Assembly (NCBI GenBank): GCA_016784285.1 | Contig: JADHUX010000006.1 | Coordinates: 1 to 14,377, forward strand | Direction of reading: 5' to 3' | DNA: 14,377 nt | DNA from: Parcubacteria group bacterium | Lineage (GTDB): Bacteria > Patescibacteriota > Minisyncoccia > Phycocordibacterales > UBA2163 | Part shown: positions 3,357 through 11,978 of the stretch, in pieces | Layout of the letters: each line of letters opens with the position of its first letter | How positions within the stretch are numbered: the stretch's first letter is position 1 | Made by a program: the position numbers and the translations under genes | The notes under the pieces: generated by a model | Databases searched by the model: none | Told to the model about the DNA's origin: nothing | Seen by the model: only the letters and a program-made list of their open reading frames with translations

Positions 3357-3408
3357 TTTTGTAGTAATATTGAAGACATTGTTTTATTAGTTTGTGTAGG
3401 AATTAACC

Positions 3409-3482
3409 CCTGTTTTACTCCTTAAGGTCTCACCTCTTTCCGCTAAGCTTCACGAGGAAAGGCCTTCTCCCGTAAAAACAGG
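3409..3482 (+). ncRNA. Structured element copy A, upstream of rpsA
   Basis: First of three related elements in this window. The outer stem CCTGTTTTAC (3409-3418) pairs with 3472-3482 (one bulged A). The conserved core is TCCTTAAGGTC on the 5' side and CGAGGAAAGGCCTTCTCCCG on the 3' side. Inside, AAGGTC (3424-3429) can pair with GGCCTT (3461-3466), and CCTC (3433-3436) with GAGG (3454-3457). It ends 22 nt before the rpsA ATG, so it could be an rpsA leader. A short near-palindrome CAGGACATCCTG (3479-3490) overlaps its end. I found no convincing promoter upstream. Confidence 0.6.
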
Positions 3483-3504
3483 ACATCCTGCGCTATTTTA
3501 TATT

Positions 3505-4656
3505 ATGACAACAAAAACTAAAGAAGTAGAAGAAAAAGAAGTAGTATCAGAAGAGACAAACCTACCTGCCGGCAAGGCAGGAAAGACTGGGAAAAAGGAC
3601 TCTGCAATGACAAAGTTATTGAACGATAGTCCTAACCCACCAGAAGTTGGAGACCTTGTAGAAGGGGCTGTTATTGGTACTCTCAAATCAAGTGTATTTA
3701 TTGATCTACACCCATTTGGTACCGGTATTATTTATGGAAAAGAATTCCTACAGGCATCTGACATACTTAGAAAAGTAAATATAGGAGACAATATAGCAGC
3801 AAAGGTAGTAGACAGAACTACAAATAAAGACGGCTATATTGAGCTTTCACTTAAAGAAGCTCGTCAAGCACTTCTGTGGAGTGAAGCTGAGATCGCTATT
3901 GCGAACAAAAGCATCATTGAAGTACCTGTAAAGGAAGCTAACAAAGGTGGACTTATCCTTGAGTGGAAAAGCATACAAGGTTTCCTACCAGCTTCACAAC
4001 TTAAAGCAGGTCACTACCCACGAGTTACAGACGGTGATAAAGACAAAATACTAAACGAACTCAAAAAGCTTGTTGGTACTAAGCTTTCAGTATCAATCAT
4101 TACTGCTGACCCTAAAGAAGGTAAGCTTATCTTCTCTGAAAAGGATCCTGAGAAAAAAGAGAAAGAAAAGATAGTCGATAAATATGCAGTTGGTGACGAA
4201 GTAGAAGGAGAGATTACAGGTATCGTTGACTTTGGGATCTTTGTAAAGATTGAAGAAGGACTTGAAGGACTTGTGCATATCTCTGAGATAGAATGGGGTC
4301 TAGTAGACGATCCAAGAAGCTTGTTTGCAGTTGGAGACAAAACTCCTGTTAAGATCATAGAAATAAAAGACGGAAAGATCTCACTTTCTATCAAGGCTTT
4401 GAAAGAAAACCCTTGGAAAGAAGCTAGCGATAAATATAAGAAAGACGAAACAGTAACTGGAGTGGTGATCAAATACAATAAACATGGAGCTCTTGCATCA
4501 ATCGAAGAAGGTGTAGCAGGACTTGTACATGTATCAGAATTTGAAAACGAAGAAGATCTAAGAAAGACACTTGAACTTGGAAAGACTTATGACTTCAAAA
4601 TAGCAGTCTTTGAACCAAAAGAACAAAAAATGACACTTTCATTTAAAAAAGATTAA
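3505..4656 (+). CDS. rpsA: Ribosomal protein S1 (bS1), four S1 domains
   Basis: Binds mRNA on the small ribosomal subunit. The 383-aa protein has a charged, low-complexity N-terminal tail of about 45 residues, then four OB-fold S1 repeats at about 49-118, 135-215, 228-300 and 312-383. Repeats 3 and 4 are the most canonical (GIVDFGIFVKIEEGLEGLVH and KHGALASIEEGVAGLVHVSE). E. coli S1 has six repeats, so this is a shorter form. The tail contains LPAGKAGK encoded by a palindromic stretch (3565-3581). No Shine-Dalgarno precedes the ATG; a structured element ends 22 nt upstream, which could serve autoregulation as known for rpsA leaders elsewhere (inference). It is a single gene ended by a strong bidirectional terminator shared with pth. 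Confidence 0.93.
   Translation: MTTKTKEVEEKEVVSEETNLPAGKAGKTGKKDSAMTKLLNDSPNPPEVGDLVEGAVIGTLKSSVFIDLHPFGTGIIYGKEFLQASDILRKVNIGDNIAAKVVDRTTNKDGYIELSLKEARQALLWSEAEIAIANKSIIEVPVKEANKGGLILEWKSIQGFLPASQLKAGHYPRVTDGDKDKILNELKKLVGTKLSVSIITADPKEGKLIFSEKDPEKKEKEKIVDKYAVGDEVEGEITGIVDFGIFVKIEEGLEGLVHISEIEWGLVDDPRSLFAVGDKTPVKIIEIKDGKISLSIKALKENPWKEASDKYKKDETVTGVVIKYNKHGALASIEEGVAGLVHVSEFENEEDLRKTLELGKTYDFKIAVFEPKEQKMTLSFKKD
3565..3581. repeat. In-frame palindrome in rpsA tail
   Basis: CCTGCC (3565-3570) and GGCAGG (3576-3581) are inverted around GGCAA, within an overlapping TGCCGGCA palindrome. It encodes PAGKAG in the unconserved N-terminal tail of S1, like the PAGG stretches in GyrA and the MBL-fold protein. 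Confidence 0.6.
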
Positions 4657-4730: not shown

Positions 4731-4751
4731 ATCCAAGGGCGACCCTTGGAT
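4731..4751. repeat. Second hairpin beyond pth stop
   Basis: ATCCAAGGG (4731-4739) and CCCTTGGAT (4743-4751) form a perfect 9-bp hairpin with loop CGA, 3 nt after the pth stop codon on the minus strand. There is no T-run; it may protect the pth 3' end or be a separate palindromic insertion. Confidence 0.6.
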
Positions 4752-7917: not shown

Positions 7918-9105
7918 ATGGCACGTAACATAACAACAGGGATAGATATAGGTACTCACCAAGTAAAAGTAATAGTGACTGAGTACGGTAAAAACGGAAA
8001 CGGCAATATGCCTAAGATAATAGGTACTGGTTTTTCGCAGTCCAAAGGCCTACGTCATGGTTATATAATTAACCAAAACGATACTGTAAGAAGTATAAGC
8101 ACAGCGGTTGCACAAGCAGAAAAGTCAGCCGGAATAAGAATCAAAAAAGCATTTATCTCTATAGGTGGTGTAGGACTAGAAGAAGTTCACTCGCGTGGTG
8201 GAGCTGTTATAGCAAGAGCAGACTCTGAAATAACAGATTTAGATATTGAAAAAGCTATAAAAGACAGCGAGAAAAAAGTCGCACAAAAGATAGCGAACCG
8301 CAAAATTCTCCATGAAGTCCCTCTTCAATACAAAATAGATGGACAAAAAGTTCTTGGTAAACCACAAGGTATGCGTGGCAGTAAACTTGAGCTAGACGTA
8401 CTTTTTATAACTTGTCTTGAACAGCATTTAAATGATCTCATATCTGCAGTAGAAGATGCAGGTATAGCAGTAGAAGATGTAATGGCTTCCCCTCTTGCTG
8501 GAAGTTTTGTTACATTAAGCCGAGCACAGAAGGTAGCGGGCTCTGTACTTGCAAACATAGGTGCAGAGACAGTTTCAATAGTAATATTTGAAAATAATAT
8601 ACCTGTATCACTTAAAGTCTTTTCAATCGGTGGTACAGATATAACAAACGATATAGCTCTTGGGCTCAAAATACCACTTGATCAAGCAGAACGAGTAAAA
8701 ACAGGGGCTCTCTCCGGTGCTGAGTTCCCACAGAAAAAACTAGACGAAATAGTTAGCGCAAGACTTTCTGATATATTTGAACTTATTGAGTCACACTTAA
8801 AGAAAATCGGTAAAGCAGGATTACTCCCTGCAGGGATAATAATCACTGGTGGTGGATCAGGTATAGCAACTATAGAAGACCTAGCACGAGCTGCACTCAA
8901 ACTTCCTTCAAAAACATCTTCAGGATTTACTAGTGGTAACAATGGGTCAGTAACTATACAAGGAAACGTACGCGACTCTTCATGGGCAGTTGCATATGGA
9001 CTTTGCATCTGGGGACTCTCTACTGACGAAGACGGAGTAGGAATAAAACTAGCAAAGCAAACTGGCGGAAGTATTGTCGGCTGGGTAAAGCAGTTTTTAC
9101 CTTAA
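7918..9105 (+). CDS. ftsA: Cell division protein FtsA
   Basis: Actin-like ATPase that tethers FtsZ filaments to the membrane. The 395-aa protein has the ATP-binding phosphate-1 loop TGIDIGTHQVKVIV near the N-terminus and an SHS2/1C domain containing AFISIGGVGLEEVHSRG. Phosphate-2 is seen as LANIGAETVSIVIFENN, with SIGGTDITNDIA after it, and the adenosine motif is IIITGGGSGI. The last residues (GSIVGWVKQFLP) form a short amphipathic segment, the expected membrane-targeting tail. I chose the ATG at 7918 because GIDIG begins shortly after and the TATAAT box lies just upstream; a TTG at 7894 in frame would lie over the promoter. ftsZ follows but as a separate transcription unit. Confidence 0.93.
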   Translation: MARNITTGIDIGTHQVKVIVTEYGKNGNGNMPKIIGTGFSQSKGLRHGYIINQNDTVRSISTAVAQAEKSAGIRIKKAFISIGGVGLEEVHSRGGAVIARADSEITDLDIEKAIKDSEKKVAQKIANRKILHEVPLQYKIDGQKVLGKPQGMRGSKLELDVLFITCLEQHLNDLISAVEDAGIAVEDVMASPLAGSFVTLSRAQKVAGSVLANIGAETVSIVIFENNIPVSLKVFSIGGTDITNDIALGLKIPLDQAERVKTGALSGAEFPQKKLDEIVSARLSDIFELIESHLKKIGKAGLLPAGIIITGGGSGIATIEDLARAALKLPSKTSSGFTSGNNGSVTIQGNVRDSSWAVAYGLCIWGLSTDEDGVGIKLAKQTGGSIVGWVKQFLP

Positions 9106-9106
9106 C

Positions 9107-9167
9107 GCTCCTCAAGGTCGCACCTCTTCCGTCATAAATTCCTCCTCGAGGAACGACTTTTTCCCGC
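9107..9167 (+). ncRNA. Structured element copy B, directly after ftsA
   Basis: Second copy of the repeated element, starting 1 nt after the ftsA stop. It keeps the core: GCTCCTCAAGGTCG and ACCTC on the 5' side, CGAGGAACGAC and TTTTTCCCGC on the 3' side. AAGGTC (9114-9119) pairs with GACTTT (9155-9160), CCTC (9123-9126) with GAGG (9148-9151). The outer stem is reduced to GC/GC because the next bases belong to the adjoining terminator. Placement suggests part of the ftsA 3' UTR. Confidence 0.6.
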
Positions 9168-9201
9168 AATAGCTCGGGAGCTCCGCTCCCGAGCTATTTT
9201 T
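9168..9201 (+). terminator. Terminator after ftsA
   Basis: Perfect 14-bp stem AATAGCTCGGGAGC (9168-9181) with 9185-9198, loop TCC, followed by T residues to 9201. It directly abuts element copy B, taking the bases that form the outer stem in the other copies. Confidence 0.9.
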
Positions 9202-10553: not shown

Positions 10554-10637
10554 AAATTATTGCTCCTCAAGGACGACCTATGTAGAAGGAGTTTCGCAAC
10601 TTCTACATCGAGGAAAGACCTTTTCCCGCAATAATTT
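10554..10637 (+). ncRNA. Structured element copy C, upstream of trxB
   Basis: Third and best-formed copy. The outer stem AAATTATTGC (10554-10563) pairs perfectly with GCAATAATTT (10628-10637). The core TCCTCAAGGACGACCT is followed by a 9-bp hairpin, ATGTAGAAG (10580-10588) with CTTCTACAT (10600-10608), then CGAGGAAAGACCTTTTCCCG. AAGGAC (10569-10574) pairs with GACCTT (10617-10622) with one A-A mismatch. It ends 23 nt before the trxB ATG. The outer stem differs completely in sequence from copy A but pairs equally well. Confidence 0.65.
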
Positions 10638-11948: not shown

Positions 11949-11978
11949 TCCCCAGCAAGGACAGTCCTTGCTGGGGAT
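11948..11978. repeat. Strong hairpin after truB, abutting a -35 box
   Basis: Perfect 14-bp stem ATCCCCAGCAAGGA (11948-11961) with 11965-11978, loop CAG. It starts 2 nt after the truB stop and runs straight into TTGACA on the minus strand. No T-run follows, so it is either a U-less truB terminator or an operator. Confidence 0.8.

Follow-up and report, generated by a model that had tools for sequence, protein, structure and literature searches.

A dispersed family of miniature palindromes, probably mobile DNA, with complementary arms that differ from site to site in Patescibacteria genomes

The window analysed here, meaning the whole stretch of 14,377 nucleotides, carries three copies of one short repeat, which we call A, B and C in order of position (Table 1). 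All three had been picked out in an initial annotation and all three lie where it placed them, sharing a 3' half, CGAGGAAMGNCYTTYTCCCG, that is free of mismatches on the + strand at 3453-3472, 9147-9166 and 10609-10628, when 0.01 matches would be expected. The three stretches each fold better than all of 200 shuffled versions (z -4.2, -6.2 and -3.8 for A, B and C), although the folded copy B stretch took in the neighbouring terminator-like hairpin, which contributes much of its energy. The outer arms of copies A and C are unrelated in sequence and yet each pair is complementary, so the pairing of dissimilar outer stems described earlier is real; copy B is almost without an outer arm (1 bp by an ungapped rule). 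Hairpins related to the one nested in the loop of copy C occur in either orientation at loci L004, L005, L015, L019, L030, L036 and L044.

Table 1. Positions of the three repeat copies and of associated features in the window.
Feature	Position	Strand	Remarks
Probable rpsA leader hairpin	3394-3493	+	Outer helix 3394-3401 with 3486-3493; copy A in the tip; rpsA ATG at 3505
Copy A, left outer arm	3409-3417	+	Falls on the leader's inner hairpin stem
Copy A, core	3418-3472	+	55 nt; two 25-nt half-units, 3418-3442 and 3448-3472
Copy A, right outer arm	3473-3482	+	
Copy B, core	9108-9166	+	59 nt; between the ftsA stop codon (9103-9105) and a terminator-like hairpin (9168-9198)
Copy C, left outer arm	10554-10562	+	
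Copy C, core	10563-10628	+	66 nt
Additional hairpin, nested within the copy C loop	10580-10608	+	ATGTAGAAGGAGTTTCG..CTTCTACAT
Copy C, right outer arm	10629-10637	+	

The surroundings of copy A contain a second structured feature. In G005, a relative in the same genus, and in other relatives a hairpin lies upstream of rpsA that has a YTAAYCC-like loop and ends in a variable tip; among 30 rpsA upstream regions from the order it was recognised by eye in 16. Its parts are an outer helix, the YTAAYCC-like 5' loop, a variable inner hairpin and a short 3' loop. When 13 rpsA loci were compared with Rfam the leader had no match, and two hits below the gathering score fell elsewhere in the loci. Since the leader hairpin is present in relatives, at least part of what had been taken for the outer stem of copy A is the inner stem of the leader itself. 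The earlier association of copy A with an rpsA leader therefore stands insofar as the copy does sit within a probable leader; it is probably a passenger in the tip of this separate hairpin, and the better RNA candidate at rpsA is the leader, not the repeat.

The repeat family is real and far larger than the three copies first noted. A pattern scan of the window genome (G000; 376 kb, 70% complete) that allowed up to three mismatches found 44 places, while a reversed control pattern found 1. These comprise 26 forward and 18 reverse copies (the orientation of the contigs being unknown), so that the rule that all copies occupy the + strand holds within the window but not genome-wide. For alignment we retained 32 regular copies and left out 2 without a clear 5' half and 10 that were nested, altered or damaged. 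A covariance model built from the 32 copies found 46 places in G000, about one per 8 kb, 13 in G005 and 2 in G001, whereas G002, G003 and G004 yielded none. All six genomes belong to one genus, G003 being 59% complete; the further copies in relatives on which the initial annotation had made the family depend thus exist. A search of the order that scored at most 12 candidates per genome, so that its copy numbers are lower bounds, gave matches at E<=1e-4 in 27 of 397 genomes and in 16 of 179 genera. When named genomes were scanned with a stricter pattern, eight stretches came up, six in the MAG JABGQE01 and one each in JAHIYV01 (Patescibacteria) and JACPGU01 (Microgenomates). The same strict pattern was absent from viral contigs, and a link to phage was set aside on that ground. 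The suggestion of a dispersed family in the CPR is accordingly borne out: it occurs in CPR/Patescibacteria genomes, its pairing is conserved, and its outer stems differ from locus to locus and covary. Composite copies, in which further units lie inside or beside another, were seen at L025 (1501-1628) and L086 (1477-1618).

The core runs from CTCC to CCCG, is mostly 50-75 nt long and is a dimer of a 25-nt half-palindrome of about CTCCTCAAGG-n5-CCTyTTCCCG. Aligning the first with the last 25 nt of 28 cores gave a score of 8.1, compared with 2.4 for shuffled sequence. The doublet of half-units is clear and the two orientations score alike: because the unit is itself a half-palindrome, the reverse-complement reading (7.7) scores nearly as high as the direct one.

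Pairing is strongly conserved in both the core and the arms. Among the 32 aligned copies of G000, 84.2% of cells are paired (74.7% when shuffled) and covariation is 0.295 as against 0.136. For 78 distinct rows from outside G000, in an alignment that had been fitted to the covariance model, the corresponding figures are 89.2% versus 69.5% and 0.484 versus 0.144 (reached in 0 of 500 shuffles), and the best slid version of this alignment has a covariation of 0.160. The outer arms of 42 G000 copies have a mean pairing score of 3.9, compared with 2.0 after permutation (largest of 2000, 2.7), and 81 rows from elsewhere, which include a few repeats of one place, have a mean of 6.4 against 1.06 (largest of 500, 1.77); the longest arms of single copies reach 14-16 bp. 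The significant covariation on which the initial annotation had staked its case is thus present, and it is strong, but it does not single out RNA. Such pairing indicates a constraint on the folded form, which RNA could also explain.

Comparison of sites between genomes bears on whether the element moves. At the three window sites, ten orthologous stretches from the five same-genus relatives, searched with filters off, contained no recognisable element (best 12.1 bits, E 0.53), and ten intergenic copies, copy C included, have readable core-free counterparts in G005. Three sites are occupied in the same orientation in both G000 and G005 (L005/L080, L008/L070 and L019/L067) and a possible fourth, L028/L078, is matched at one flank only; with three, perhaps four, sites in common, turnover is evidently not fast. 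The inner stem of L005/L080 is AAGGAC/GACCTT in one genome but AAGGAC/GTCCTT in the other, and at this site the outer arms have changed in concert. One further site, inside a frame, carries the element in opposite orientations in G000 and G005 (L044, 1445-1520; L064, 1501-1571), either through inversion between the arms or through two independent insertions. L019 and L030 possess identical 75-nt cores within unrelated flanks, and L032 and L040 nearly identical cores with different arms. Because G005 has a shorter core at the L019 site, conversion between copies could also account for L019 and L030 being identical. Direct repeats around the core are weak overall (at register 23, z of 3.6 in one set and 2.3 in the other when 37 registers were scanned), and the best cases are L001, at overlapping convergent genes, and L019; a target duplication of about 19 nt was set aside as weakly supported.

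Copies are also found inside genes. In G000 or its relatives they lie in frame within leuS, rsmA, rnhB, murC and gatB, and miaA has one at its start. A simple ORF rule places 7 of the 40 G000 copies that could be tested inside a frame, though for two of these (L006 and L018) the stretch concerned may be an upstream extension of the frame; when an open frame of 100 nt on each side is required, the count is 6 of 42. Outside G000, 32 of 76 testable copies are in frame, including 6/6 in G354, 4/4 in G371 and 0/8 testable copies in G203, although open frames by themselves are no proof of coding. NCBIfam named nine of ten such fragments: LeuS four times (three genomes, two sites), RsmA, RNase HII, GatB, MurC and MiaA; a second GatB-like fragment, L209, had no NCBIfam hit. 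In MiaA the core falls in an N-terminal extension ahead of the first matched residue. The LeuS, RsmA and RNase HII of G005 have shorter loops from which the core is absent, and the core is missing from MurC in four relatives. When long-arm copies were compared with congeneric genomes, L207 and L221 gave usable in-gene pairs and L210 was blurred. G000 and genomes from other families carry copies at the same LeuS sites (L012/L168 and L035/L170), which may reflect repeated insertion, great age or transfer of the gene. Stop triplets in the six frames of 37 cores number 129, whereas shuffled cores have 173.6 and the lowest of 300 shuffles 145. We put the survival of the element in genes down to this scarcity of stop triplets and to its adding only about 20 residues, in a variable loop. 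A different small palindrome, CCGCCAGCTGGCGG, and its relatives lie in frame in coding sequence of the window at 2792-2805, 1735-1750 and 3565-3581, giving the peptides PPAGG, LPAGG and LPAGKAG in a metallo-hydrolase-like protein, GyrA and RpsA (names assigned by eye), and the type recurs in MiaA of the window genome and in rpsA of G002.

Taken together, the many copies, the patchy presence, the pairs of occupied and empty sites, the repeated cores and the insertions both between and in genes lead us to regard the element as a palindrome of mobile DNA. That it is mobile DNA of some kind we hold to be very probable; that it is, more specifically, a miniature non-autonomous palindrome whose mobile unit is the core, a dimer of the 25-nt half-palindrome, is probable as well. 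The core would be mobilised in the form of a folded single strand, with a transposase acting in trans to cut and rejoin it; the most likely candidate for this enzyme would be a Y1 protein encoded in the same genomes. The outer arms would lie outside the moving unit, as part of the insertion site or as a product of insertion, and the simplest reading is that the core is mobile and the arms belong to the site.

Matches to Y1_Tnp number six in G000, five in G005, one in G002, two each in G003 and G004 and none in G001, which nevertheless carries two copies of the element. Fifteen of the 16 frames are 162-301 aa long, a RAYT-like length. A Y1 gene is present in 13 of 14 element-bearing genomes as against 6 of 11 element-free ones, all chosen by us, and this co-occurrence is suggestive only. 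Several Y1 genes are flanked by short palindromes of their own (by eye), but none is flanked by the element: the 16 loci, searched with its model and filters off, gave at best 14.4 bits (E 0.14). Movement of the element by Y1 (HUH, RAYT-like) proteins is thus a tentative assignment, which we put at somewhat below an even chance. Carriage as cargo of a neighbouring transposon was rejected, since four places with adjacent copies show ordinary genes (by eye) and the Y1 loci are unflanked. Short palindromes like those flanking the RAYT-like Y1 genes of the genus are also present in the window at 11950-11976 (ccccagcaaggacagtccttgctgggg) and 4731-4751 (atccaagggcgacccttggat).

The most interesting part of the problem is how copies come by mutually complementary flanks. 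Among the ten empty counterparts in G005, both arms are already present in two, the right arm alone in four and neither in four, as counted by a 7-of-8 rule on short AT-rich arms with one relative and no outgroup. A pre-formed palindromic target was rejected because both arms were so seldom present, a rejection that does not extend to sites like L034. Arms that travel with the moving unit were likewise rejected, since close core pairs differ in their arms, with the reservation that about 30% of the genome, and with it possible donors, is missing. The scarcity of empty sites with both arms also fits a later origin, in which the arms arise by template-switch correction of a quasi-palindrome and have no role in insertion. 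Such correction is a known mutational process, and we consider it a possible but somewhat unlikely source of the arms: where a copy has close relatives elsewhere in the genome, its arms are at least as good as those of diverged copies (rho -0.31, p 0.06, 36 copies), so that arms seem to be early and not to grow with age. With both arms so rarely pre-existing, we retain as the boldest reading, and a rather doubtful one, that the insertion builds its own inverted repeat by snap-back synthesis. The folded core would join one target flank and its 3' end would then be extended back along that flank, giving each copy private complementary arms of up to 14-16 bp.

Other explanations of the family as a whole must be weighed against that of a mobile DNA palindrome. 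The initial annotation proposed a structured RNA, naming as candidates an rpsA leader, a trans-acting small RNA and a dispersed CPR RNA family, and gave the LOOT motif, described from CPR phyla, as the first to compare. A cis-acting 5' leader, a small RNA or a LOOT-like motif would owe its conservation to the fold of a + strand transcript. The strong pairing and covariation, the stable folds and the presence of start codons 22-23 nt downstream of the ends of the arms in copies A and C all agree with this. However, an Rfam search with the three window copies matched zero families at E<=5 among 4227 models, a set that may or may not include LOOT. Nor are copies oriented as leaders should be: the gene downstream of 33 intergenic copies, within 200 nt and by the simple ORF rule, is on the same strand in 13, on the opposite strand in 16 and absent in 4, and no bias of these copies towards gene starts was found. 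Selection on a + strand RNA should tolerate G-U and avoid A-C. Counted in two alignments, G-T versus A-C pairs were 8 versus 3 and 7 versus 18 in the inner helices and 9 versus 13 and 26 versus 35 in the outer ones, or 50 versus 69 over the four classes, a count to which positions past the true stem add noise and which had no RNA positive control. G-U is thus not favoured over A-C, and one class leans against the + strand (p 0.04, four tests), so nothing here indicates selection on a + strand RNA. In-frame insertions in either orientation, empty sites in close relatives and the absence of the element from 3 of 5 same-genus relatives also speak against an RNA family, and we rejected it as the main reading on Rfam, gene orientation and the wobble count; as an account of the family we judge it highly improbable. 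The case carries a more general caution: because mobile DNA hairpins covary too, compensatory pairing, however strong, is not by itself proof of RNA, and a count of G-U against A-C is a cheap discriminator.

Two further explanations concern how the element is maintained or copied. A dispersed site with a function maintained by the host, in DNA uptake, the nucleoid or replication, would agree with the density of copies, the conserved core and the depletion of stop triplets, yet the element is missing in close relatives, patchy in the order and present inside conserved genes, and a host function does not account for arms specific to each locus; we regard such a function as improbable. The same mobile element might also be copied through RNA, by SINE-like reverse transcription into staggered breaks. 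The conserved fold, and long variable direct repeats at a few copies such as L001 and L019, would suit that route, to which we give a slim chance, given that duplications are weak overall and neither a tail nor a fixed 3' rule was seen.

Read as mobile DNA, these miniature palindromes form a new family whose behaviour is close to that of Rickettsia palindromic elements (RPEs) and REPINs. RPEs are short palindromic repeats of about 150 bp, found in Rickettsia in many copies and divided into ten families; nearly half of the copies lie in genes in frame and add a peptide to unrelated metabolic proteins (PMC10969869). The present element is similarly short, palindromic, multi-copy and in frame within conserved proteins, a likeness of behaviour; unlike the RPEs as described there, its core is mostly 50-75 bp, its lineage is another and its arms differ at each site. 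REPINs, as portrayed in the sections consulted, are doublets of short palindromic REP units in one hairpin, and REPs within genes are on record (PMC3116915, PMC3733652). Our element too is a doublet in one hairpin and most element-bearing genomes checked hold a RAYT-like Y1 gene, but it lacks a conserved GTAG/CGTC foot (by eye, the flanks vary and the core starts with CTCC), and the RAYT-like genes are flanked not by it but, in several cases and by eye, by other palindromes. It is best read as behaving like REPINs without the REPIN hallmarks that were tested. The GC clusters of yeast mitochondria, GC-rich hairpins of 42 nt in the commonest form, are in the account used here mobile in an AT-rich genome and merge with one another (PMC4478555); they resemble the element as mobile palindromic hairpins but belong to another cell compartment and have short AG/ACT direct repeats in place of complementary arms. 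Complementary site-specific arms are not described for RPEs, REPINs or GC clusters in the portions of these papers that we drew on (PMC10969869, PMC3116915, PMC4478555, PMC3733652). Among the matches listed in a search of the open-access literature, none dealt with palindromic elements or with elements of REP type in CPR bacteria.

Patescibacteria genomes are very small. Here one such genome carries a selfish palindrome about every 8 kb, in some cases in frame in aminoacyl-tRNA synthetases and other conserved enzymes, and protein-coding palindromes would thereby gain a lineage far from Rickettsia. The arms raise the testable question of how hairpin DNA integrates. If snap-back synthesis is the answer, it would be a new mode of integration, by a protein-tolerant CPR parasite that shapes the loops of essential enzymes.
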